Source: Kappaphycus alvarezii
Lineage: Eukaryota; Rhodophyta; Florideophyceae; Gigartinales; Solieriaceae
DNA: 64,000 nt
NCBI GenBank assembly: GCA_002205965.3
Contig: NADL03000457.1
Span: forward strand, 248,001 to 312,000
Direction: 5' to 3'
Below, one piece after another: positions 1 through 52,244 of this stretch; the stretch's first letter is position 1; every line of letters starts with the position of its first letter. The notes under the pieces were generated by a model, which saw nothing but the letters and a program-made list of their open reading frames with translations, made no database searches and was not told where the DNA came from. Made by a program: the position numbers and the translations under genes.

Positions 1-2067
1 GGACATTGGAGGAACACATAGCTCATTGCAAGGAAGTGTTCAGGAGAATAAAAGAATCGAAAATGAAGTTGAAGGTTACCAAGTGCAGCGTTGCCCAGTC
101 AGAAGTGAAATTGATTGGTCACATCGTTAATTCAAGTGGTGTGAAGGTGGATCCCGACAAGATCAAAGATATTGTAGAAGCTCCGGTGCCGGAAAACGTG
201 ACCGAACTCAGGAGTTTTCTGGGACTCGCGGGGTACAACCGACGTTTCATAAGGGGGTTTGCGGACAGCTCAGCAGTGTTGCACGCGGCGACGTCTGTTA
301 AGAAGGCTTTCGAGTGGACTCCGGAGATGTAAGAGGCCTTCGAATACTTGAAGGGGAAACTGACTACCCCTCCAAAATTGGCGTTCCCGGATTCCAATTC
401 TCCTTTTCTAGTGGGAACAACGCCTCTTCGACAGCCCTTGACGTTGTTCTCTCGCAGAAGAAAGAAGACGGGAAAATACATCCCATTCAGTTTGCTTCTC
501 GAACGATGACAGACCAGGAGCGCCGCTACTCCACGAGCGAACGAGAAGCACTCGCCGTGTTATTCGCTCTTAAGAAGTTTCGAGTGTACCTCCTGCCTGA
601 AAAACCCTTCGTTGTCTATACGGATCATCAAGCCCTTCAAACCGAATTCAAGAAGAAAGATATTCACGGGCGGTTGGAAAGGTGGATGGATTTGATGGCG
701 GAATACGACTTCGAGATCAAGTATCGTCCGGGACTGACAAATGGGGCGGCCGATTATCTCTCGAGAAGACCTAACAAGAAGGAAGAAAGAAGAAACGAGG
801 AAAACATAACAGAAGGATTGGTGGCGACAGTGGATTGGGCAGACCCAAAGCTGCATGGTTTGGAACTGCACTTGCTAGATATAGCACGTTTCCTAGCCAG
901 AGAAACGGTTCAAGAATCCGACCCGAAGAAGAAGGTCGCAGTCAGACGGAGCGCAAAAGGTTTCATGCTCTGGAAAGATACCCTCTTTCGTCGTGAGAAG
1001 GACGGGCTCCGTGTAGTGCCTCCGGTCAATTAGCGCTCGGAGATTCTGGCCACCTTTCCTGATGATGTTGGCCACTGGGACGTCGGTTCGACAAGAAAGT
1101 TCGTGAGGGACCGATTATGGTGGCCTGCGGTGTACCGTGATGTCACCGAGTATGTGCAAGGCTGTGATGGGTGTCAGCATGCGAGAAGGTTGCCAACGTA
1201 TCACTCGAGTTTGAGACCTCCCGCTATTGAACTCTTTGAGACCTTCTCGATGGACTTTGCTGGACCCTTCAAGCCTTCGAAGAATGGGAAGAGATTTATT
1301 CTGATCGCTGTGGGACATATGACAGGGTGGCCCATAGCCTGGGCCGCGACGGATTATACGGTTGATACGGTGATGAGGTTCATCGAGGAAGAGATTTTAT
1401 CACCGTTCGGACCGCCAAAGAGAATTGTCTCGGATAACGCGACTGCGTTTATGGCGGGAGCGGTACAAGAGTACATGAAAGAGAGGGGAGTCGAGTGGAA
1501 GGCGGTGCTTGCTTACGCGCCGATGGCAAACGGTCGCGCGAAGCCGATGGTGGGAACTATCAAGCACATGCTCAAAAGGGCTATCGTCCGCAGTGGGATA
1601 GACTGGGCAGAGGCCCTCCCCAAAGTCTTATTCGGTTACCGCAGATGCGACCGAAGCGACTCCCCTTCCCCTTTTCGACTGATGTATGGAATTAGTCCGA
1701 GGATGCTGTCCAGCGATTCGGTAGCATTTCTCAGTGACGCTGGCCCCATCATCGGCTTATAGAGACCTTAGCCGATTCGAGAACGCGGGCCGGCGTGGTG
1801 GAGAAGACCAGCGAACCCCGCAAGACGAAAGGAAAAGTCAGGAAGTTCGAAGTTGGAGATGAAGTATTGGTAGCGCACGGTGCGGCCTTCAATAAGGGGC
1901 GCAACTGGTCGGTTTTCGACTCTTATTACTATGGACCGTGCAGGTTGATGAAGGCGAACCACCCTCGCTACGAGTTACTTTCCTCCACCGGCCTCTTTAC
2001 GAGGAAGTCAATTCACGCGCGCCGGATTGTCCCGTATCAGAAGAGATCGATCCATTTATTCAATTAA
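1..2067 (+). mobile_element. Ty3/gypsy pol fragment (RT end, RNase H, integrase)
   Basis: The region encodes, in order, the end of a reverse transcriptase (connection segment with the SFLGLAGYNRRFI motif), RNase H (VYTDHQAL; AADYLSRR), an integrase zinc region (CDGCQHARR), an integrase core (FSMDFAGPF, VSDNATAF, then a TIKHM helix) and a GPY/F-like tail (YYGPCRLM, RRIVPYQK). This order RT-RNase H-integrase is that of Ty3/gypsy. It enters from the left edge, so gag, protease and the 5' LTR lie outside. It is related to, but clearly diverged from, the Ty3 copies further right. The reading is broken about three times, so it is a fossil. No LTR could be identified downstream; a minus-strand ORF abuts and slightly overlaps its end. 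Confidence 0.9.
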
Positions 2068-3487
2068 GGAAGAAAAGAAATTCGAGGACATGAGAGAAAA
2101 AGAGGCAAGAATCGAGTGGATTGCTGCGATGAAAGCGAAGAACGCATGATAGAAGGCTAAGTACCGAAGAGGCACACAGAGAAATCGTAAGCATTGTGAG
2201 TGAAGTCTTGAATCTTGAGCAACTAGGGAGCGGCGTTGCTGCCTCCCTGGTTCTCCCTAATCCTCCTCTCGCGCTTCCGGACGGACAGGGAGTTGAGACC
2301 AGGGCGCCGCTTCCTGCGCTTTCCTGGATAGCGAGCGCCGCCCTCCGAACCTCTAGGATGGAAATGATTGTAGAATTATTACCGACGCATTCACGGAAAG
2401 GTTGAGAGGAGAGGTCCAAAGCAAAGCGCTCACATGGGTCCCGTATCTGGCCCGTCTCGTTGTTCATGGTGACACAGTGATGGAAACCATGGGAACCCTG
2501 GATCGTCACGGCGTAGACACCACTAGGAAGAGCCAAGGTCTCCTTGATGCTCGGGTTGAGACGAAAGATTTGATGGAGAATGAACGAGCGTGAAGGCGCA
2601 TGCTTCTGGGCGTCCCTCAGGCTCCTGATGCGACCCCGACGTGTGACATCGGCCTTCAAAGCTCGATCGTTACCCTCATAGTACTCCATACACTCTTGTC
2701 CGACGGGAGGGGCACCCAACTGCCAAAGAGCATTGGAGATTGAGAAACCGATGCATAAGTCAGTATCATCACGGAATACCACATCAGTGCGAGGAGAGGC
2801 CAAGAGAGAATCAGGGGAAGCACGGGGCTCCCTGGAACGAGCTGATGACAACTTGAGATAACGACCAGGATGAAGTTGGCACCACCTGTGGACGCGCGAA
2901 ACAGCACTGAGTCGACCTTCACACCTTAAAGAGAACCGGGCATGACGGGAGATGGAGTGACCGTCTGGCTCTTGGGGGCCGGAGAATGCGAGAGTGTAGA
3001 GCAAAACCGAGTGCTCATTTCCCGTTTCCGTGTCGACTGCTCCATAAGTCTGGGTGTCGTCGTCCCAGGGGACCGTGCTGATAATCCAATCCTCATCCCG
3101 TACTCCATCGTACACGCGCCGATCGTGCTGGGATTCCGTGAGACCGAATTGAAAAGAATCCTCCCGAGTGACTTCGTCACCAACGCAGTGAATCACGTAA
3201 TATGTGATGTGGGTCCCGAAGAGATCGAGGAACTCCTGACGAGAGACGCGGTATGGATGTATTCCACAGGCGTCGGTGTAGATGACGAAAGGGTTCCGCT
3301 CCTCCCCGCCGAGGAAAAGCACCTTCCTGATGTCGGCACACTCCGACAATAACCGCATCAAATTCGCTCTAGCCACCGGAGGAGGCCCCTTTGCATCGCG
3401 GGCGACTCGCGCCGCCTTAGTGGCGATATTCTTGCAAAGTGCACGGCCACCGGTGCTCAAACGAGCAAGCTGCTTCGTTCGAGCCAT
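2060..3487 (-). CDS. histone H3 tail-like N-terminus fused to a possible papain-fold cysteine peptidase
   Basis: An uninterrupted 475-codon ORF opens with ATG then ARTKQLARLSTGG, continuing with IATKAAR near residues 21-27. This follows the histone H3 tail residue for residue: R2, K4, Q5, R8, S10, T11, G12, G13, K18, A21-T22-K23 and R26 are kept, while positions 9, 14 and 27 are L, R and V instead of Lys. No histone fold follows. Residues 45-180 are unrecognised. Residues 243-260 (DLCIGFSISNALWQLG) with C245, then GFHHC (H336/H337) and QIRDP (D350), resemble the Cys-His-Asp order of papain-like (clan CA) peptidases; this is inference from motif order. Residues 430-450 are hydrophobic and might be a membrane segment. 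It converges on, and overlaps by 8 bp, the Ty3 pol end, so it could be an antisense gene of that element or a host gene. Confidence 0.7.
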   Translation of the reverse strand: MARTKQLARLSTGGRALCKNIATKAARVARDAKGPPPVARANLMRLLSECADIRKVLFLGGEERNPFVIYTDACGIHPYRVSRQEFLDLFGTHITYYVIHCVGDEVTREDSFQFGLTESQHDRRVYDGVRDEDWIISTVPWDDDTQTYGAVDTETGNEHSVLLYTLAFSGPQEPDGHSISRHARFSLRCEGRLSAVSRVHRWCQLHPGRYLKLSSARSREPRASPDSLLASPRTDVVFRDDTDLCIGFSISNALWQLGAPPVGQECMEYYEGNDRALKADVTRRGRIRSLRDAQKHAPSRSFILHQIFRLNPSIKETLALPSGVYAVTIQGSHGFHHCVTMNNETGQIRDPCERFALDLSSQPFRECVGNNSTIISILEVRRAALAIQESAGSGALVSTPCPSGSARGGLGRTREAATPLPSCSRFKTSLTMLTISLCASSVLSLLSCVLRFHRSNPLDSCLFFSHVLEFLFFLN

Positions 3488-3941
3488 GGAAAAAAAGGGG
3501 AAAGAGAAGGAAGGAGTTGTGAAGGGGTTATGCGTTCAAGGCGGTGCAGAACGGGGGGAGTTGCAGAGAAGAAAGATGGTTCAAGATAAGTTCCGGACGT
3601 TCGCGAATTTCGAGGGCAGCGGGGGAGAGCTCAACAGTGCGCGGTTGTTGGAGACGAGAGGTTGAGATGATGGAACGGGTTGACAGAGTCTGGAGGAATT
3701 GGGACCTCCGGGCGTATACTGGCCGTTTGGCGGCACCTCAGTCGTTCGCCCGACGGAAGTTGAAGGGTTGATTAGGCTGATAAGTTGAGTAGGGCGAGTA
3801 GGGACTGAGGTCGGTAGAATGGATGGTGGGCGATTCGGGCATGGGGTGGTAATGAGGGGGCCCCCTAGGTGAGAGCGAAGCTGAGCTGGAAGTCCGTTAT
3901 TATCGTTGTGGCGCCCGTGGCCCACAATCAGTGGGGGGCTT
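3488..3941. other. no gene seen; upstream region of the H3-tail ORF and LINE junction
   Basis: This stretch is purine-rich on the plus strand close to the H3-tail ORF start and then becomes mixed. No LTR of the left Ty3 element and no recognisable coding domain was seen. The LINE leader begins somewhere near its right end. Confidence 0.5.
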
Positions 3942-4144
3942 GTCGCGCGATATTTGTGTCGCGCGACGGTCAGGGTCGTTGGTTGATTGGCCCAGTGTGC
4001 TCGTACAGTATACAGTACTACTGTACACTGTACGAGCGGGAAGTGGGCACGTACAGTGTACAGTAGTAGTGTACACTGTACTTGCACGTTCATGAGTAGA
4101 AATCCCAGACCGGCCGCCCTATAAGATGACGCGAGGGCGGCCGG
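3942..4144 (+). repeat. row of four inverted repeats in the LINE 5' leader
   Basis: Four hairpins lie in a row. GTCGCGCGA (3942-3950) pairs with 3959-3967. Arms of 19 bp with one mismatch span 3999-4037, starting GCTCGTACAGT. A perfect 12-bp pair, GTACAGTGTACA and its complement, spans 4051-4081. A perfect 11-bp GC-rich pair, CCGGCCGCCCT (4110-4120) with 4134-4144, encloses the start codon at 4126. Such a leader could be promoter architecture or an RNA structure used in translation; that is inference. Confidence 0.85.
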
Positions 4145-4905
4145 AGTACGGGGGAAGGAGAGGTAGGTTCCGCTTGGCCGCGAGAGAGAGAAGAGGACAG
4201 AGTAAACACAAAACAAGCATTTCACCCCTGGAACAATCTCAAGTAGAACATGTACCCCACCTAGAGCATATGCCAGTCGAGCGAAACAATGGCAATTGGT
4301 TTTCAGAGCACACGCTAGCAGGCCCCACCTCAACAAGTCCACTACCACATCCGGAGGTTTGTCCACTCTGCCCAACCCCAAAAACACGAATGCGAACAGT
4401 CGCCAACCTGCTGGCACATCTTCGTCACACGCACCGCGCCGGATCTAAGCAAGGACAGCCAAAACTGCATCAGCACAGTAAGCTCAAGAGGTACATCGCA
4501 CAGGTGGGTTATTGGTACTGTGCTTGCCACAACCAGTACATCGGCTCCAAGGTTTCCGGGCCGAGGGATAACGGCCTCTTCGAGTTTTCATACTCGAAAT
4601 GCCCAAAATGCACAGTCAACACGGCACCAAAGCAGTACACGCCACTGGACAACACACAACTCCGCAGCCTCGTACCAACGACAGTACCCTCCACGGTACC
4701 TGTTTCAGACGAGCCAGCCCCGCCAGCACCAAATAAGGCTTCCGCAGACAGCATTATCCCCAACATTTCTAGCGCTGAGGCACCTCTGACAACTGCGACG
4801 AACACCAGGTCTACTTCTCGACCCACACCGGACAATCCCGCGCCTCAGGGGCCTGCCGCAGAAATCCAAAACCCCTCAAGCAACCACGCGCAACCGTTGC
4901 CCTGA
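4126..4905 (+). CDS. LINE ORF, N-terminal zinc-finger region
   Basis: This 259-codon frame begins at an ATG inside a hairpin loop. The N-terminus is Arg/Gly-rich (RGRPEYGGRRGRFR). A C2H2-like finger follows, starting CPLC and ending HLRHTH, then a CxC...CPKC cysteine pair, and a Pro/Ser/Thr-rich linker. N-terminal C2H2 fingers that bind target DNA are usual in R2-type LINEs. The frame ends at TGA 4903-4905 but the same frame stays open to 5398, so the stop is most likely a lesion in this copy. A hydrophobic or signal segment is not seen; the protein would work in the nucleus as part of the target-primed reverse-transcription complex. Confidence 0.75.
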   Translation: MTRGRPEYGGRRGRFRLAARERRGQSKHKTSISPLEQSQVEHVPHLEHMPVERNNGNWFSEHTLAGPTSTSPLPHPEVCPLCPTPKTRMRTVANLLAHLRHTHRAGSKQGQPKLHQHSKLKRYIAQVGYWYCACHNQYIGSKVSGPRDNGLFEFSYSKCPKCTVNTAPKQYTPLDNTQLRSLVPTTVPSTVPVSDEPAPPAPNKASADSIIPNISSAEAPLTTATNTRSTSRPTPDNPAPQGPAAEIQNPSSNHAQPLP

Positions 4906-5398: not shown

Positions 5399-5802
5399 TG
5401 ATGTGCACAAATTCGCACACGAAAAACTCTAGATGAGGACCATAATTGTATACAGTATTGGAACTGGGAAGATATTTTTACAGTTTTTGAATTTGCAAGA
5501 TATTTTTAATTTGGGTGAGTGTGGCAAATTCATCGGTTGATTTTTTATTTTAGGACACGCTGTCATAGTGGATGTCAGTACAGTTCTAGGTTGTGGGTGA
5601 TACTACGAGTGACTCTGAAAGGTCTATATAATGGCCACATCAATTCCCACCCCTGGCCGATGGGTGGCTGGCATGGGTATGGCACCTAGATATTTACCTT
5701 GAGGAAATATCTTCTAATGGTCTCTCTGGTTCACACGATTCCCGTGAATGCATTTTATGGTTATTAGTCTGTTTGTTTGAAGACTTTTAGGATAGCCAAA
5801 AG

Positions 5803-5812
5803 TCTATATAAG
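5803..5812 (+). promoter_or_regulatory. conserved TATA box of the Ty3 LTR
   Basis: AGTCTATATAAGCCGAGTAA is shared, with few changes, by the Ty3-related LTRs at 5399, 12161, 20050, 26060 and the partial copy ending at 30247, although their upstream halves differ. This marks the core promoter. A second TATA-like box near 5622 is shared only by some copies. Confidence 0.7.
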
Positions 5813-5846
5813 CCGAGTAAACTGCTTCCTCTAGTGGAGGTCAAGA

Positions 5847-5903
5847 AAGTTGGCAGACAACTTCAGGTCAAGCTCCGAGTAGTAGGAAGTTGAGAGTCAA
5901 CTT
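5847..5903 (+). other. paired hairpins in the R/U5 part of the Ty3 LTR
   Basis: AAGTTG-GCAGA-CAACTT (5847-5863) and AAGTTGA-GAG-TCAACTT (5887-5903) form two perfect hairpins 23 bp apart, just downstream of the TATA box. In the Ty3-2 LTR the first becomes AAGTTT-GCAGA-AAACTT (20498-20514): the closing pair changes from G-C to T-A and the loop stays. The second keeps a 7-bp stem with another loop (20538-20554). Confidence 0.7.
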
Positions 5904-6206
5904 CAGATCCTAGAAAACTTTTTCCTAAGCTGGTCGCAGAGCATCAGTGGTAGACCCTGCCCCTTTTATACTTGCTTGTAGCCCTCTCAACTCTCTCCCA
6001 TATACACTCCTTTTTATTTGTTCAACTATACCACGGTAGCACTTTTGTCGCTCGCAACACCTCCGTCTTGGGGTAGTTGGTTCTAAGTATCTCTTCTCCC
6101 GACGATTTACCCCTATCATTTGGTACTCTTGTGGAGGGGGTTGCACCCGAGGTATTCGAGTTGAGCAGTCTTAGGGAACCATTGAGGGGATTTCTTTTCT
6201 GTAATC

Positions 6207-7133
6207 ATGGATCTCAACGCTGCTCGTATAACGTTCACAGGGGGCAAGAATGAAGACGTTGAGGAGTTTCTCTATACATATGTCAACGTTGTGATGCGTG
6301 AGAAGAGCGATGAAGAGAAGGCCGAAAGTATCTTCGCCTATCTTCATGGTGACGCAAAGCACAAATATAAGGCCAAGTTTATCAACGGGTGGTCTCTTAA
6401 CGGGAATGGGCGTAACTTCGGTGAGGTATGTGAGTGGCTTGTGAAAGAATATGCTAAGCAGGTAGAACCAGATGAGATGATTCGTACCGCCATAGAGGCC
6501 CGGCTCAACTTCGACGATTTGTTAAGCTCATTGGTATACTTGTGTGATCTCTATGAAAAGGCTGGGTTCAACGCCCAAGCCAAGTACGGAATGCTGCGTA
6601 AGGCGGCGATGGGGGATAAGCGGCTCTCCGATTTCCTCCTCATCAAGGGCCCTCACACTTTTAATGAACTGAAGGGTACCATAGTAGAATTTGTCAAAAA
6701 TTCGGAGACGTTTCAGTCACTGAGTGAGGTACCGAGGGAAACCCGCACATCGGTGTCTATCGTACATCCTGAAAAGAATTATCAAAGGCCAGCGACTAGC
6801 GCAGCAGCATTGGAATCAGTCAGGAGCGATGTCAAAAACTTGGAAGAAAGGTTGGAAACCCGATTCGATAATCGACTTGACATGATAACCTCGCAGTTGG
6901 AAAGCCTTACTCTTACCATTAAGAAGAACCAGTCTGGGGCCCCAAGGCCGCAGAAGTCTGTTCCTACTGTCACAAGCCTGGACACTTTGCAAATAGGTGT
7001 CCTGATAATCCACATAGAAACACTCGTTGTGGAAAGTGCGGTCGTTACGGGCATCATGAAAGTAACTGCTGGTCTAAAGACAACAGAAGAGCAAATTTAT
7101 CGGACGCGAGGAGTGAGTCAGGACCAGAGATGA
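6207..7133 (+). CDS. gag: Ty3-1 gag-like frame
   Basis: The ATG at 6207 opens a 308-codon frame beginning MDLNAARITFTGGKNEDVEEF. Residues 1-170 are the helical capsid-like gag region and residues 195-240 a likely coiled coil. The Ty3-2 copy at 20859-21780 shows that the family carries two CCHC zinc knuckles (CFYCHKPGHFANRC and CGKCGRYGHHESNC) after the coiled coil, which bind RNA. Gag would form the cytoplasmic virus-like particle. The copy is a fossil with a break toward its end. Confidence 0.85.
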   Translation: MDLNAARITFTGGKNEDVEEFLYTYVNVVMREKSDEEKAESIFAYLHGDAKHKYKAKFINGWSLNGNGRNFGEVCEWLVKEYAKQVEPDEMIRTAIEARLNFDDLLSSLVYLCDLYEKAGFNAQAKYGMLRKAAMGDKRLSDFLLIKGPHTFNELKGTIVEFVKNSETFQSLSEVPRETRTSVSIVHPEKNYQRPATSAAALESVRSDVKNLEERLETRFDNRLDMITSQLESLTLTIKKNQSGAPRPQKSVPTVTSLDTLQIGVLIIHIETLVVESAVVTGIMKVTAGLKTTEEQIYRTRGVSQDQR

Positions 7134-8215
7134 AAATCTTACAAAACAGGAAGGATCAAAGGTTGGCGGATGCCGGTAACGTATCCATCGCTGAAGAAAT
7201 CAGTCAAGTTAATGTGACAAAAAGGGATGGGGAAGGGAACGTTTTGTCGAAAAAACCTAGGCTAGATTATGGAATGCTGGAGCATATCCCAGCACCTGTA
7301 CCTCCTCGAACCAAGAGGCTTGATCAAGTTGTTCCAGGGGTGGGAAACACTTCGGCCAAGAAGACGAGAAAGAGTAAGAAATTTAAGAGTATCCCGAAGG
7401 ACGTACTAGAATATGTGAAGAAGTACAATTTGGTGGCTGAGCTTGCATCGGCCCCAACTGGGATAACGTTTGGTCAACTTTTGAGGGGCGACGCAGAGGA
7501 TGCGAGAAAAGAACTCAAAAAAATTATCAGGTCTAATAAGTCCGCTAAGGGTAAGAAACTGTTTCTTCAATCGGCCTCGACAGCACCAAGACGTCTTAAA
7601 CTAGTACCAGTCAAAGTATTGGGAATGCAAACCCAAGCTCTTTTCGATTCGGGCGCTGTTCCAAACCTTATCTCAGAAACTTTGGTGACAGATTTAGGTC
7701 TCGAAATTATTCCAACTACTCGAAGAATAACTGTGGCGGATGGAACCGTCTCAAAATGCATGGGCACTGTTAACAAGGTTTCCGTGTTCTTTGGGGACTC
7801 TAAAGTTGATGTAGACTTTCTCGTCATGCCGGAGCTCCCTTTCGATGCAATCATTGGCTGTCCTACCATGGAAAGACTAGGGACCTGCATTGACTTGGGC
7901 AACCAAATCGTTTCAGTTAATGTTGACGGCAGAAACGTGAAGATGCCCCTGGATTTCGACAAAAGCACACATCCGGAAGATCTAAGAGAGACGGACAGTG
8001 AAGATTTCACTTCTAGCTATGACAGCGAAGATTCCGAACCAACTAACACTTTCGGAAGTGAGAAAGGGTACGCTCGGGGGACAATGAACATGACATGGGA
8101 CGATTATGATTCTGGGTTTGAAACAGATGAAGAATGGAATTCTAGGGTAGGTTTGACACCTGAATGTGTTTCTTTTTGCGATAATATCGAATCAAAGGAC
8201 GGAATTCGGGCATGA
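7130..8215 (+). CDS. pro: Ty3-1 protease and linker frame
   Basis: The frame overlaps the end of the gag frame. Its first half is a basic linker. It then shows an aspartic protease: ALFDSGAVPNLIS with the DSG active site, and later LPFDAIIGCPTM, the hydrophobic-hydrophobic-Gly motif. An acidic Ser/Asp-rich tract (DSEDFTSSYDSEDSE) follows. The protease cuts gag and pol in the particle. The same region in Ty3-2 is interrupted by a solo copia LTR. Confidence 0.88.
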   Translation: MKILQNRKDQRLADAGNVSIAEEISQVNVTKRDGEGNVLSKKPRLDYGMLEHIPAPVPPRTKRLDQVVPGVGNTSAKKTRKSKKFKSIPKDVLEYVKKYNLVAELASAPTGITFGQLLRGDAEDARKELKKIIRSNKSAKGKKLFLQSASTAPRRLKLVPVKVLGMQTQALFDSGAVPNLISETLVTDLGLEIIPTTRRITVADGTVSKCMGTVNKVSVFFGDSKVDVDFLVMPELPFDAIIGCPTMERLGTCIDLGNQIVSVNVDGRNVKMPLDFDKSTHPEDLRETDSEDFTSSYDSEDSEPTNTFGSEKGYARGTMNMTWDDYDSGFETDEEWNSRVGLTPECVSFCDNIESKDGIRA

Positions 8216-10641
8216 AAGAAGATTACAATTGCACGGAAAACAAGGATATATCGAATTCCATATCTGAAGATGTGAGCACGCCGGAAGAGGTCCTTCAAAA
8301 TTTGGAGGGTGAGGATCAAGAAAAGGACCAGCGCCAAATTGGAGAAATTCAAGAAAAAGTACAGCACCTTCCAGCCCCCGCCTCAATGATAATATCCGAC
8401 ATGTTAACATCTTCCGAAGTAATTGCATGGAGTGTATCAGATTTAAGACAAGCAAGTGTACCGGTCACTCACTCATTTGAACTTACCGATACTCAACCAA
8501 TTTACCACAGGCCTAGACGTCAACCGCCAAAATATGACCAATTTATCTCAGAGAATGTTACAAGTATGCTGGAAAATGATATCATTCGGCCAGTTTCATC
8601 CCCATGGTCATTTCCAGTTGTGGTCGCACCAAAGAAGGATGGAAAGCTGCGTTTTTGCGTCGATTACCGACAACTGAACCAGAGAATGATACCCGATCGA
8701 TTTCCGATTCCAAATATGGAGGAAATCCTCGAGGACTTGAAGGACGGGAGATACTTCACCTCAATTGATCTTTACACTGGTTATTGGCAGATTCCATTGG
8801 ATGAAAAATGCAAGGAAAAAACAACTTTTACCAGCAAAGCCGGTACATTCAGGTTCGAAGTGATGCCTTTTGGTCTCATGAATGCCCCAGCTACATTCCA
8901 AAGAATGATGAACGAGGTTTTGAAAGGACTTCCATTTGCAAGAGTTTATATCGATGATGTAGTGATATTCTCAAAAACCTTGGATCAGCACATATCGCAT
9001 GTCAAGACTGTGGTGGAGAAAATAGCTGCGTACAGCCTGAAAATTAAGTTAAGCAAATGCTTCTTTGCGAAAACGTCTATCCAATTACTCGGTCATATCG
9101 TCGATCAAGAGGGAATTAAAGTGGATCCAGAGAAAACGAAAAAAATCAAGTTGGCACCAAGGCCCGCTTCAAAGACGGAGGTTCGAAGCTTCTTAGGACT
9201 GGCCTCATATTACAGGAGATTTATCAAAGATTTCGCCAAGACTGCAGCACCGTTACATGCCAGCACAACAAAGAACGGAAAATTTTTATGGAACAAGGAA
9301 ATGCAAACCGCATTTGAAGAGCTTAAAGATAAGCTATGTGTCCCCCAGTGCTCATGTATCCAGATTTCAAGAGACCATTTGTTGTGGAGACAGATGCCTC
9401 AGAACGGTCTTTGGGTGCCGTTTTGTCCCAAAAAGATGAAAACGGAAGACTACACCCGGTTCAATTCGCAAGTCGCACTCTGAATGATGCGGAAAGAGAT
9501 ACTCAGTCTGCGAGAAAGAAGCGCTAGCTGTCGTCTTCGCACTGAAAAAGTTTCGTGTTACCTTTTATCACTCGAGAAATTTGTCTTGATAACTGATCAC
9601 CAGGCACTTAAGACAGCATTCCAAAAGAAAGATGTACATCACCGCTTGGCCCGATGGCTCGACATTTTCGCAGAATATCGGTTTGAAATTGTGTATAGGC
9701 CCGGACGCAATAATCAGCCTGCCGATTACCTATCCCGCTTGAGGGATCCACTGATTCCAAATGAAAAAGCTTCCGAGAACATCGTCGGAGTTGCCGAGGT
9801 GCAAGTGCCGAACAATAACGAGTACGAAGCTAATATTCACGGACTAATTAAATTCCTGGATGGACTAGAAATGAGAAAGGTTGATATTGAACACAGAAAT
9901 TGGGTACGCAGGAATCAAAAGGCTTTTACACTATGGAATGGGAAACTCTTCCGACACACGAAAGCCGGTCCTCGACTAGTGGCCCCTTTGAAAGAAAGAA
10001 TGAAGATCTTGAGGACTTTTCATGATGAGTTAGGGCATTGGGATCTCGAAACAACCAAGAAATTCGTTACTGAGAGATTCTGGTGGCCCAGTATCCATAA
10101 GGACGTCTATAATTTCGTGAAAAGCTGCGACAACTGTCAAAAATTCACGCCAATACGAAAGTATAAGACAACTCTAGGCTTTCCAGTTTCCGGTCTCTTT
10201 GAAACCTTCTCAATTGACTTTGCCGGCCCATTCAAGGAAACCTCTTCCGGAAACAAATATCTCCTTATAGGGGTGGAACATCTTACTGGATGGCCAATAG
10301 CAGTTGCAGTTGAGGAGGCCAATGCTGAAGTGGTCCTGAGATTCATCGAAAAAGAAATAATTGAACCGTTTGGTCTTCCAAAAAGGATCATCTCAGATAA
10401 CGCCTTTGTTTTACTGCAACTTCACTGCTTCGTTTCTTGGAAGAGAAGGATTCAGCTGAAGACAGTTCTCGCATACGCTCCTATGTCAAACGGTAAAGCG
10501 GAGAGGATGGTTGGAACCATCAAACGAGCAATATCGAAAACTATGTCGAGAATGAAATCCAGTGGGAAGATGCCTTACCAAAAGTGTTATACGGCTATCG
10601 TCGAAGAAGAGGAAGAAGTGGACGGTCACCGTTTGAGCTAA
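8212..10641 (+). pseudogene. pol: Ty3-1 reverse transcriptase, RNase H and integrase core
   Basis: The reverse transcriptase shows PKKDGKLRFCVDYRQLN, TSIDLYTGYWQIPL, MPFGLMNAPATFQ and the catalytic YIDDVVIF. RNase H follows (VETDAS; LITDHQALKTAF; PADYLSR). The integrase has the HHCC zinc region (HDELGHWD ... CDNCQK) and core motifs FSIDFAGPF, ISDNAF and AERMVGTIK. The segment is broken about twice. Together the domains copy the RNA to DNA and insert it. Confidence 0.9.
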
Positions 10642-11069
10642 TGTACGGAAGAGCTCCTAGAATGTTACAGAGAGATATGGAAACAAATATTATCGATGAA
10701 GAGAGTAGAGAGGTCGAACTACTGGCCACCGAAAGCTGGAGATCACACCGCGCGCTAACACAGACAAGAAATAAGGATGAAGAGCCTCCAGTCCAAACTT
10801 TCTCAGTCGGCTCTAAAGTACTTGTAGCACACGGAAAAGCAATGCAACAGGCTGTGAAGTGGCCGGCTTTCCAAACAAAGTACTCGAACCCTTGCATCGT
10901 CACGGAGGAAAGACACCCGCATTATAAGCTCTGTTCAAGCTCAGGGAAGAGATCAAGGAGGGCAATCCATGCACGTCGTCTGGTCCCTTACCATCAGAGG
11001 CCTGAAGAATTCCTTCTCACACAGGACTATGCGCAACCACGGGCATACTCATCTTTAACTATAGAATGA
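10584..11069 (+). CDS. Ty3-1 integrase C-terminal region
   Basis: This frame overlaps the preceding one and carries the end of the integrase core (SPFELMYGRAPRML) and the C-terminal module with VGSKVLVAHGKA, KYSNPCIV and RRAIHARRLVPYH, a GPY/F-like domain. No chromodomain is visible. Its last codons overlap the start of accessory ORF 1 by 4 bp. Confidence 0.8.
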   Translation: MLYGYRRRRGRSGRSPFELMYGRAPRMLQRDMETNIIDEESREVELLATESWRSHRALTQTRNKDEEPPVQTFSVGSKVLVAHGKAMQQAVKWPAFQTKYSNPCIVTEERHPHYKLCSSSGKRSRRAIHARRLVPYHQRPEEFLLTQDYAQPRAYSSLTIE

Positions 11070-11641
11070 TTCCTATGGGAGGAAAAAGGGCCTGGGAATG
11101 GATCATCTCGATTACGCGTGACTACTACGAACTCCACGTAATCATCCATTTCTACATTAATATATGCCTATGTTTTCGTACGTTGAACGGACCATTGCTA
11201 CCTGAAGAAGATTTCCGACTATTAATCAGAGTTCTATTCTCATTCCAAAACGGAAGGTTCACGGAAGCAGGTCCAGAGTTTGTGGAAGTCATATATCATT
11301 ACTCTATAGGAAGGTATGGAATGGTAGCTATCGGAGACTTGTCGCAAACATATCTGAACATTATCCGTCCAGTTTACGTATTTCTCAAGAACAACCAAGA
11401 TGTGCGACTGAGAGGTTACAGCTTGCCCCCTGATATGGAATATCGACTGGTCCCGTATCCTCTATGGGAACCTTACGTTGCTCCGCTCAGAAACACAACC
11501 TCAGCTGGAGACCAAGATCCTCCCGAGACCGTGATGATGATACGGCAGGACCATCAAGTGATCGAGGCGGATCATCGAAGAGGGCAAGGCGTCGGGAGCA
11601 GCGAGGAAGATCGCCAAGAAGATCGCCCAAACACCGCCTAG
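11066..11641 (+). CDS. Ty3-1 accessory ORF 1, unknown function, paralogue of ORF 2
   Basis: This 191-codon ORF overlaps the integrase end by 4 bp (ATGA-type overlap) and lies where env would sit in an envelope-bearing element. It has no signal peptide. Residues 15-105 form a helical domain with INICLCFRTLNGPLL, RVLFSFQNGRF, YSIGRYGMV and IIRPVYVFL. The tail is polar and Asp/Arg/Glu-rich. The same domain is repeated in the next ORF, so it arose by tandem duplication. I do not recognise the fold. The Ty3-2 copy has lost this whole region by deletion. Confidence 0.75.
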   Translation: MIPMGGKRAWEWIISITRDYYELHVIIHFYINICLCFRTLNGPLLPEEDFRLLIRVLFSFQNGRFTEAGPEFVEVIYHYSIGRYGMVAIGDLSQTYLNIIRPVYVFLKNNQDVRLRGYSLPPDMEYRLVPYPLWEPYVAPLRNTTSAGDQDPPETVMMIRQDHQVIEADHRRGQGVGSSEEDRQEDRPNTA

Positions 11642-11708
11642 TCTCCCAAGGGGAAACTATGCATCCTTAATTATTGGACGGCTACCAATTAGACGTTGGC
11701 TTCGCGAA

Positions 11709-12095
11709 ATGACAGAGGACCCTCGAGAAGCAGAAGTAATTTCCTTTTTTGCCATTAGTATTTGCATGTGCTTCCAGACCATTCACGGGGCGCACCTTAC
11801 TCGTGAGGACTCAGTCCTTATGTTGCGAGTTTTTTTCTCCTTCAGATACCCGTTTCTGGACCCGTTGCCAGAAAAGTTTGCATACTACGTTTACTACCTC
11901 ACATTTGGAAGGTTTGGAGAAGTGAAACGGGAGGAGCTCATTAGAGAACACTATGAAACCATACGCCGAATCTACGAAACTCTTGACCAAGGAGATGAGC
12001 CGGTATCGCACGGTACACACTCTCTCATCATATTGGAAATGAGCTACTACCATATCCTTACAGTGAACCCTATACTCTCCCTGATGAATGGATAG
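11709..12095 (+). CDS. Ty3-1 accessory ORF 2, unknown function, paralogue of ORF 1
   Basis: This 128-codon ORF matches accessory ORF 1 along its length: ISICMCFQTIHGAHL, RVFFSFRYPF, YLTFGRFGEV and TIRRIYETL align with ISICL-, FSFQ-, GRYG- and IIRPVY-type motifs of ORF 1. The similarity extends slightly upstream of its ATG (RRWLRE). The next downstream feature is the polypurine tract and 3' LTR. It may be a small regulatory or structural protein of the element; this is not shown by the sequence. Confidence 0.7.
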   Translation: MTEDPREAEVISFFAISICMCFQTIHGAHLTREDSVLMLRVFFSFRYPFLDPLPEKFAYYVYYLTFGRFGEVKREELIREHYETIRRIYETLDQGDEPVSHGTHSLIILEMSYYHILTVNPILSLMNG

Positions 12096-12160
12096 AACTC
12101 CCACAAGAACAACAAGAGCATTGAGAACGAGCCGGGACGTTCGTCTTGAGCGGGAGGGCG

Positions 12161-12885
12161 TGATGTGCACAAATTCGCACACGAAAAAATCTAGATGAGG
12201 ACCATAATTGTATACAGTATTGGAACTGGGAAGATATTTTTACAGTTTTTGAATTTGCAAGATATTTTTAATTTGGGTGAGTGTGGCAAATTCATCGGTT
12301 GATTTTTTATTTTAGGACACGCTGTCATAGTGGATGTCAGTACAGTTCTAGGTTGTGGGTGATACTACGAGTGACTCTGAAAGGTCTATATAATGGCCAC
12401 ATCAATTCCCACCCCTGGCCGATGGGTGGCTGGCATGGGTATGGCACCTAGATATTTACCTTGAGGAAATATCTTCTAATGGTCTCTCTGGTTCACACGA
12501 TTCCCGTGAATGCATTTTATGGTTATTAGTCTGTTTGTTTGAAGACTTTAGGATAGCCAAAAGTCTATATAAGCCGAGTAAACTGCTTCCTCTAGTGGAG
12601 GTCAAGCAAGTTGGCAGACAACTTCAGGTCAAGCTCCGAGTAGTAGGAAGTTGAGAGTCAACTTCAGACCCTAGAAAACTTTTTCCTAAGCTGGTCGCAG
12701 AGCATCAGTGGTAGACCCTGCCCCTTTTATACTTGCTTGTAGCCCTCTCAACTCTCTCCCATATACACTCCTTTTTATTTGTTCAACTATACCACGGTAG
12801 CACTTTTGTCGCTCGCAACACCTCCGTCTTGGGGTAGTTGGTTCTAAGTATCTCTTCTCCCGACGATTTACCCCTATCATTTGTA
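12161..12885 (+). repeat. Ty3-1 3' LTR
   Basis: This is nearly identical to 5399-6125 and preceded by the polypurine tract at about 12149-12160. It is followed by the target duplication ACACC and by resumed LINE coding sequence. Confidence 0.92.
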
Positions 12886-17780: not shown

Positions 17781-19028
17781 ATGCCGAATAGACAAGAAAC
17801 CGCGGTAAGGCGTCAACGCCGCCATTACAATCATGTACAAATGAAGGCCCTAGAGGAGATGGCGAATAGACGAATGGAGCACGTAAACAGACTGGTTCAT
17901 GATAGACTAATTTACGAAAACTCCCGTGCTCTTCCACCCGTTTTGGAAGAACAGCGTCTTAAGAAAGGGTTAGAACGTGATACAGAGATTGGGAAGCACA
18001 TATTTGCATTTTATGAGCAAAAGGGGAACGTAACGTGCCCTGTCGAAGGTTGCAATTCAAAATATACGTCGTTCACGGCTATTGGCGTAAGTTGTCCACT
18101 CAGCTCAATTTTCTTTGTGTGTAAATGTCTATGTCGAAAAATCTAAGAACTAACATAAACTCTTGTCGAAACGTATTCTTTGATCTATTCCCCAGAAACA
18201 TCAAGTTAAAAAGCACGGATCGAGAACACCATTTGTTTGTCTCGCACCCGGATGTTTCCAGCTTTTCCGTACTGCTGCGGAGGGAAGAGAGCATGTCTCA
18301 AGGTAAGTCAATAAATGAGACTGAATCATGTCAATCACTCAGCTACTTTCGCAGCGCAAAGTGTCTAGGCAATGATCACTGACCCTTTTTAATCTCCTTG
18401 TCCATTTCCAAAGTGCTCATCAAGACTCGAATCAAACTACTGCCTTACAGATCCAGTCGGTATCAAATGTTGATACCAACCACAGGGTCGAAATCAAAAC
18501 CCGACTGAGCTCACATCACCAAGCCAGCAACCTGAGACCTCGCCCCTTGATTCCATTGAGGCTCCAATGGAAGGTATTGACGTTGCGAGAAATTCTGCTG
18601 GGGTTGATAGCATGGCATGTGCAAATAAACGAACACGTGAGAAGGGGTCCTCCGAAGGCGATTCTCAAGAACCTCCTCGCAAACGACGAGCGTTGATTGG
18701 TAGCTCACATGGTCAGAATGAAACTCCGTTTCAGGGGAAGAAGGAAAACTCAATTCTTGAAACGATGCAAGGCATATGTGACAGACATGAATGCTCTCCC
18801 GATGTGAAAAGAGGTGCCCTTTCTCTATTCTTGTTCAAAAACCCCATTATTGAACCAATCCTGGATGATCTCGAGTTGTAAGTAATCACTGAGAAGATGA
18901 ACCCATACAGCTTGTTCGTTTTTGATTGGGATGAAACAGAGATCTATCGCAATCCCAAACTACCTGCCTATGATTTACCAACGGAGGGCGTCACCTTTGC
19001 AGTTTGCAATTTGTTGTATTGGGCTTAA
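17781..19028 (+). CDS. intron-containing C2H2 zinc-finger protein (probable host gene)
   Basis: Exon 1 (17781-18086) starts MPNRQETAVRRQRRHYN, is basic and helical, and ends inside a finger. Introns 18087-18195 (GTAAGT...CCCAG) and 18303-18413 (GTAAGT...AAAG) each split a finger, and splicing gives two matching C-x4-C-x12-H-x4-H fingers: CPVEGC ... HQVKKH and CLAPGC ... HVSSAH. After exon 3 the most protein-like frame (QNPTELTSPSQQPETS, with the nuclear-signal-like PPRKRRA) is reached only if 26 bases at 18460-18485 (GT...AG) are removed. A further GTAAGT...CAG of 33 bases (18878-18910) would add about 39 residues ending at 19028. Otherwise the stop is TAA at 18879-18881. It is probably a nuclear DNA- or RNA-binding protein. 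No TE domain is seen. Confidence 0.65.
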
Positions 19029-51577: not shown

Positions 51578-52244
51578 TTAAATTCTCTGGGACAAAACTA
51601 CTTTCAAGTGTTCCTTCCCGTTCTCGTGACGCTTGAGAACCTCGTGGGAATCGAACACTCTATCACAAGCAGTACACCTAGGGGTCTTTTTCTTGTTTTT
51701 CTCTCTAGTCCTATGACCCTTAGAATTGATGTGATCGTAGAATGTCTGTGCGCTATTGCAGCTAATATCACAGAGCTTGCAGTACCTCTTGTTCCTCGGC
51801 GGAACTCTTCGTTTAGCCTTTAGTTCCTTCTTGGCAACTCGATCGGCGAGGGCTTTAGCTTTCTTTGCCGAGAGGCGTTGAACTTTCTTTATTGGCTTAT
51901 CCAGAGGTACTGACTTACGAGGGATCCTATACCTTTCCCTAGACGAGGGAAGCGCGAGCGTCTTCGGCGGCGGTCCTTCTGGTTCGAGTACTTCGATCGA
52001 TTCCACAACTGTCCTCCCCACAGATGGCAAAGTCCTAACTGTCGCAGCCCTGGGCACTCGGGGCACCAGGGCTAATTCCGAGTCTAGCACAACCCCGCAA
52101 AAGCAGGCACAAAAGTGGAAGTGATCGTCAGTAACAGCTTTTGGGATTATGAGTCTTTAGACCAACCAAAAGGTGGCAAAGAGAATCACTTCGATGTGCA
52201 AAGAAATGGAATTATTCAAATAGCTTACCGGAACGAGTAGACAT
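51578..52244 (-). CDS. leader ORF of copia B2: two-finger U1/JAZ-type C2H2 protein
   Basis: Between primer site and gag, and in the same orientation, lies an open frame of about 170 codons. It has an acidic/Pro N-terminus (VVESIEVLEPEGPPP), a Lys/Arg-rich helical middle (KKAKALADRVAKKELKAKRR) and two closely spaced fingers: CKLCDISCNSAQTFYDHINS followed by KGH, and CTACDRVFDSHEVLKRHENG followed by KEH, both C-x2-C-x12-H-x5-H. The spacing is that of U1/JAZ-type fingers, often dsRNA-binding. The long frame (51578-52083) has no ATG of its own at its start; an ATG at 52244 followed by a GTAAG donor at 52228 and a TAG acceptor at 52084 suggests a 145-nt intron and 173 residues in all. It may be an element gene or captured host sequence. 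Confidence 0.6.

Follow-up and report, generated by a model that had tools for sequence, protein, structure and literature searches.

In the genome of the red alga Kappaphycus alvarezii, an open reading frame (ORF) that starts with a near-complete copy of the histone H3 tail runs antisense to a Ty3/Gypsy retrotransposon with long terminal repeats (LTRs). The stretch analysed, referred to below as the window, is 64,000 nucleotides long (C453:248001-312000 of the 336-Mb assembly). The tail is joined to a protein that is not a histone, occurs in many copies of the same gene and has been kept by selection. The gene is almost certainly an accessory gene of a Ty3/Gypsy lineage, and this holds for the identity of the element as well. 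Its product may be a nuclear mimic of the H3 tail that aids the element against chromatin silencing, a reading that we regard as evenly balanced between true and false.

An H3 tail on a non-histone protein

The ORF occupies positions 2060..3487 of the complementary strand. It runs uninterrupted from an ATG at 3487-3485 to a stop codon at 2062-2060 and encodes 475 amino acids. Its H3-like N-terminus (3407..3487, complementary strand) comprises the initiator Met and 26 further residues, or 27 codons. ORF residues 2-27 align without a gap to residues 1-26 of H3, with 19 of 26 identical. An earlier note on this DNA had described an H3 tail copied onto a non-histone protein with no histone fold, which is what the alignment bears out; the tail had been placed at 3380..3487, and this is corrected to 3407-3487.

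A chance origin of the H3-like start can be ruled out because the runner-up among all 2339 ATG codons of the window, on both strands, matches the H3 tail in register at only 6 of 26 positions. A tblastn search of the window with H3 gave an E value of 1.1e-6 at the tail stretch of the ORF and values of 0.24 or more for everything else. Since only the tail stretch is matched, the window contains no H3 core; the body of the ORF has no similarity to histones, and the protein as a whole lacks a histone fold, its resemblance to H3 being confined to the tail. A phmmer search of the Protein Data Bank (PDB) with the ORF returned 118 sequences at E<=10 (best E 0.00096), and the best 60 of these 118 are all H3 chains, covering query residues 1-35. 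The tail was also considered as an exon of a spliced H3 gene whose core lay close by; this was rejected, since the window lacks such a core and a simple pattern revealed no donor-like site where the tail ends.

The body of the ORF codes for protein: its period-3 power over residues 28-380 is 7.6, exceeding 500 of 500 shuffles. Residues 161-240 and 381-475, each taken singly, give no period-3 signal. The coding signal reaches only to about position 2348, and the true C-terminus is uncertain because residues 381-475 lack the signal.

The family and selection on the tail

The genome contains at least 119 matches to the ORF, with identities of 33-100%. These matches are pieces, several of which can come from one copy, and the counts are lower bounds. 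The copies were divided by eye, from tails and bodies together, into subfamilies A (that of the window), B, C, D and E. The residue counts given below are taken over 42 copies and favour those with a recognisable start: loci L016-L035 were chosen mostly as divergent copies, the majority matching from residue 1-3 onwards (L035, at 80%, is closely similar), and L036-L055 were chosen for matches that begin at residue 1 or 2. The inverted duplicate at L019 counts as a second copy, and L008 (the window itself) and L011 (the place of L035) are excluded.

The tail is the best conserved of 364 segments of 26 residues, with an identity of 0.624 in ten copies across five subfamilies; only copies with a complete tail were used, gaps and stops were disregarded, and the underlying query-anchored alignments are biased towards subfamily A. 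Between subfamilies the mean identity is 0.44-0.71 in the tail and 0.30-0.40 in the body. Of 414 between-subfamily pairs, 405 are more alike in the tail than in the body; the nine exceptions all involve subfamily C. At the nucleotide level (Nei-Gojobori), the 26 tail codons differ between subfamilies by a mean synonymous proportion (pS) of 0.82 and a mean nonsynonymous proportion (pN) of 0.30, with pS exceeding pN in every one of the 89 pairs. The same holds when the family tails are compared with those of three host H3 genes (pS 0.78, pN 0.26; 45 of 45). Because pS is saturated, ages cannot be read from it; the constraint on the peptide is evident nonetheless. The tail is under purifying selection at the protein level and is thus an H3-tail sequence maintained by selection outside histones.

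Eight copies whose main match begins at residue 12 or later provide a test that is free of the start-based choice of copies. All eight that were fetched have remnants of the tail, located within the match or immediately ahead of it, with both halves in six and the second half only in L024 and L033. The absence of the tail from homologues of the body, which the earlier note had named as a ground for rejection, is thereby removed, the tail being present in the fetched copies. In 33 of the 42 copies the first residue is Met; the rest begin with Ile, Val or Leu, a pattern to be expected of a family with many decaying copies.

The residues of the tail, numbered here as in H3, are not retained uniformly. 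K23 (40/42) and A21 (39/42) are the best kept, followed by T3, T11, A24, A25 and R26 (37/42 each), by A1, K4, S10 and G13 (36/42 each) and by Q5 (36/40). Six positions are replaced throughout most of the family. T6 has given way to Leu (32/42), Q19 to Asn (24/42) and L20 to Ile (35/42), and position 14 is Arg in 31 copies and Lys in three. Position 9 is Leu in 37 of 42, encoded by TTG in 34 of 39 cases, by CTC in three copies of subfamily E and in L022, and by CTG in L012; K9 itself is kept in four copies, all of subfamily C. Position 27 is never Lys (0/42): it is Val in 30 copies and Met in three, and Ile is also present. The window's own copy is atypical in carrying P16L and R17C, as 35 of 42 copies retain P16 and 32 of 41 retain R17.

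The three intact H3 genes of the host are canonical at all the replaced tail positions and keep both K9 and K27. Subfamily C retains T6, K9, Q19 and L20, which are lost elsewhere, and subfamily B retains K14. These residues speak for a canonical H3 tail as the ancestor and against convergence.

A search of the genome with canonical H3 yields 88 matches. Six of them represent five ordinary H3 loci and four represent two core-only loci; the other 78, several of which lie at places of the ORF, start at residue 1 or 2 of H3 and are of the tail type. Annotators should be cautious, as most H3 matches in this genome are not ordinary H3 loci. At two host loci, L066 and L067, the tail differs from that of a paralogue by a lesion of a single base; they are either pseudogenes or assembly errors. 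The core-only matches (C660:372234-372670 and C609:1093448-1093887; 53-68% identity over residues 35-135) are possibly a divergent H3 variant.

The carrier element

Pol ends at 2067 and the 3' LTR begins at 3941, and the ORF lies between the two. The 3' part of a Ty3/Gypsy pol, consisting of the end of the reverse transcriptase (RT), RNase H, integrase and a C-terminal module, extends over 3..2067 of the forward strand. The order RT - RNase H - integrase is collinear with a second Ty3 element of the window at 35-51% identity, and profiles of Integrase_H2C2 (9.1e-11) and rve (3e-10) match. The gag and protease of the element lie outside the window, and pol is assigned from its RT-to-integrase part. 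This copy of pol is broken by stop codons at 330-332, 1031-1033 and 1760-1762 and by changes of frame in two intervals, about 360-530 and about 1738-1830; the antisense ORF stays open.

The 3' LTR (3941..4224, forward strand) has TG...CA ends and is paired with a 5' LTR at C453:245136-245418 (L056:1637-1919), about 2.6 kb to the left of the window. Compared over 286 columns, C453:245134-245418 and window positions 3939-4224 are 98.25% identical. The 3' LTR is followed by CCCCT (4225..4229, forward strand), a target-site duplication (TSD) of the identical five bases that precede the 5' LTR in L056. The LTR pair, the TG...CA ends and the flanking CCCCT set the boundaries of the element at C453:245136 and window position 4224, a span of 7089 bp. 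With its LTRs, 5-bp TSD and order of pol domains it is a Ty3/Gypsy LTR retrotransposon. LTR-like pairs (73.5-98.25%) are present in six of seven elements compared; no such pair was found in the seventh (L020/L059).

The antisense upstream region, from the ATG to the 3' LTR (3488..3940, complementary strand), begins with 29 pyrimidines on the ORF strand (3488-3516), the longest run of purines or pyrimidines in the window. Among 14 other copies examined, only L009 has a similar run. An LTR starting at 3518, with the corresponding purine run as the polypurine tract of the element, was considered and dismissed, since the LTR comparison sets the LTR start at 3941. The 3' LTR contains a 91-nt near-palindrome of the TGTACAGT type (3997-4087) with a counterpart in the 5' LTR. 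Apart from this palindrome, there are no terminal inverted repeats around 2068-4095.

The association with pol extends to the family. At 22 of 27 loci (L011 again excluded), the C-terminal part of a Ty3/Gypsy pol or integrase lies antisense to the ORF, 56-606 bp past its 3' end. Of the other five, L035 has a piece of protease, and L016, L019, L027 and L033 are without any pol piece within 1 kb. Its many copies and its antisense position between pol and the 3' LTR place the gene in the class aORF-3R. At L019 (3404-6120) a copy of the ORF lies within an inverted duplication, with arms of up to 427 nt at 100% identity, which results in two copies of the tail that point away from each other in orientation.

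A further explanation, under which the tail would have no function, is that a retrotransposon happens to adjoin an ordinary host gene or a random junction with a piece of an H3 gene. The codon usage of the ORF, whose lysine codons are all AAG (10, against no AAA), is unlike that of the transposon ORFs in the window, and its pyrimidine-rich upstream region resembles the leader of a gene. The pol adjacency at 22 of 27 loci rules out a standalone host gene, however, and the multiple copies, the location within LTRs and a TSD, and the purifying selection on the tail across subfamilies refute this explanation for the family as a whole; we consider it hardly credible. The chance junction that the earlier note had listed as a refuting outcome is disposed of in the same way.

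The orphan body

The body includes a conserved C-terminal domain (2330..2782, complementary strand) in which Cys245, Asn252, His337 and Asp350 have a conservation of at least 0.9 across ten copies and five subfamilies. Among nine stop-free pieces, the Asp is present in 9/9, the His in 8/9 and the Cys in 8/8 of the pieces that reach it. We take the order of Cys, His and Asp to be reminiscent of a papain-like triad. The four conserved residues suggest that the body is a cysteine peptidase, and the domain is regarded as a candidate.

No relatives of the body were found outside the alga's own genome. A large protein database gave no match to the whole ORF (E<=0.001) or to residues 55-400 and residues 1-45 (E<=10), and collections of viral and genome contigs yielded no relative. 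Such negatives carry little weight, as a Ty3 pol of the window is also without a relative in the viral contigs. PHROGs and NCBIfam gave no match, Pfam gave nothing near its cut-off and no TRP28, and the best phage match in tblastn was at 0.03. The best PDB profile match (0.21, BRD2) is regarded as noise, and no profile match was significant. AlphaFold2 models made without an alignment, of 441 ORF residues and of the C-terminal domain, had low confidence; fold searches with the latter gave no significant match, which is not proof of a new fold. A DNA pattern for the H3 start was found in no stretch of the viral-contig collection and in seven of the genome-contig collection, none of which is a fusion on translation: three are full-length H3 (136 amino acids), two are H3-like over about 95 residues, one is ended by a contig edge and one diverges past residue 15, perhaps at an intron.

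The conserved residues raise the possibility of an H3-directed cysteine protease, for which the tail would be a pseudosubstrate or a self-cleaved propeptide and which would clip host H3 tails. Cathepsin L, a cysteine protease, clips H3, and in Plasmodium H3 a clipping site between A21 and S22 is described (PMC12269491); A21-R26 is among the best-kept blocks of the tail. We consider this explanation improbable.

A possible mimic against silencing

The preferred reading of the gene is that an H3 tail was captured, kept by selection and placed in front of an orphan domain, forming an antisense-encoded accessory protein that would enter the nucleus. Removal of the Met would free Ala-Arg-Thr-Lys, and the tail could then engage enzymes or readers that bind H3 tails. 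Leu9 and Val, Met or Ile at position 27 might occupy the H3K9 and H3K27 methyltransferases without being methylatable, or partners of the H3 tail might be sequestered more generally; silencing of the element would thereby be weakened, and the body may cleave or otherwise inactivate the partner held by the tail. A decoy for H3 partners is a plausible function of the protein, to which we give slightly less than even credence. The more specific proposal, a trans-acting natural 'oncohistone' that traps or destroys the H3K9 and H3K27 silencing enzymes through Leu9, residue 27 and a protease-like body, is tentative and rather doubtful.

The flanks of the replaced lysines are retained (S10 36/42, T11 37/42, R26 37/42). 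H3K9M is known to trap Clr4 (PMC5030085), and a hydrophobic residue 27 beside Arg26 inhibits PRC2 (PMC4853476). In Neurospora, H3 K9L and K14R are interfering mutants. The earlier note had stressed H3K4 readers. This stands in so far as K4 is kept in most copies, and is weakened by its replacement with Arg in three of four copies of subfamily C; the loss of K9 and K27 is more striking.

Several observations weigh against a silencing-related mimic. Subfamily C keeps K9 in 4/4 copies and has Ala at position 8 in place of R8, so that trapping of a K9 enzyme is not the function of all members. The probability that K9 and K27 would both be among the six family-wide replaced positions of 27 by chance is about 0.04, a post hoc figure, and the preservation of residues 1-5 in the window's copy, taken by itself, is non-significant (0.18). 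Unbranched hydrophobic side chains are the better PRC2 inhibitors (PMC4853476), and Val27 is branched. In Neurospora, H3 K27L leaves DNA methylation unaffected. The precedents are whole H3 in chromatin or peptides, and none is a fusion. A search of the genome for PF05033 gave no signal, with the controls equally silent, and so carries no information on methylation in the host. Finally, the ORF is known here from its DNA sequence.

The main rival is that the captured tail is merely a nuclear-import tag read by importins of the Kap123 type. K14 and K23 are the residues through which Kap123 grips the H3 segments 12-17 and 21-26, and import is only slightly affected by K14R (PMC5677370). This is consistent with K23 being the most conserved residue, with the strong block at 21-26 and with the Arg or Lys at position 14. 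An import tag would nevertheless leave unexplained the retention of A1-K4 (32-37/42), Q5 and S10-G13 (35-37/42), as well as the Thr or Ala at position 14 in subfamily C, and we consider it unlikely.

Other features of the window

The second Ty3 element (5399-12885) is complete, with LTRs 99.4% identical and a TSD of ACACC. Between its pol and 3' LTR are two overlapping sense ORFs (11006-11641 and 11562-12095), which are alike by eye. By eye, too, the element is nested in a non-LTR retrotransposon. No TSD-like pair was found for the long interspersed nuclear element in the window. C2H2 zinc-finger-like coding stretches, recognised by eye, lie between retrotransposons at 17782-18330 and 51578-52156; the former apparently contains introns.

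Comparison with known systems

Short viral peptides are known to mimic histones. A transposon-borne, selected, near-complete H3 tail was not found in the literature searched, from which subscription papers were mostly absent, and within the same coverage no described fusion turned up, as the earlier note had supposed. The family is a natural experiment on which residues of the H3 tail matter outside the nucleosome, as two silencing-linked lysines are replaced while a near-complete tail is kept under selection. If the preferred reading is true, it would represent a new anti-silencing strategy.

The gene belongs to two known kinds, the antisense accessory ORFs of LTR elements and the histone mimics. 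Antisense ORFs of plant Ty3/Gypsy elements (Retand TRP28, Grande gene23, RIRE2) likewise lie between pol and the 3' LTR, are lineage-wide and are presumed to be regulatory, and the Grande protein is nuclear (PMC11963269, PMC7264820). They differ in that the word 'histone' does not occur in the available parts of these two papers, and the ORF described here has neither TRP28 nor any other significant Pfam domain. The integrase targeting domain of Ty5 is also part of a retrotransposon protein and resembles the host chromatin-associated protein Esc1p; unlike the present tail, it is a Sir4p-binding targeting motif that involves no histone (PMC4700185).

Among the mimics, the SNAG domain of GFI1 and SNAI1 is an N-terminal imitation of the H3 tail that occupies the substrate cleft of LSD1 (PMC5896174). 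It is an example of mimicry by short host peptides and is carried by host transcription factors, whereas here a 26-residue copy of H3 is carried by a transposon protein. In the epigenetic editor CHARM, the free N-terminus of the H3 tail is seemingly critical (PMC11875203), and this fusion indicates that an H3 tail can act when free at its N-terminus. CHARM is man-made, however, and carries an unmethylated tail that stimulates DNMT3A, whereas in the algal family other residues take the place of K9 and K27. The oncohistones H3K9M and H3K27M and the Neurospora H3 K9L resemble the algal tail in having a hydrophobic residue at position 9 or 27 with the flanks kept, and the sources describe dominant or semi-dominant interference with methylation. 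They are whole histones or peptides, in contrast to a transposon protein that is known from its sequence.
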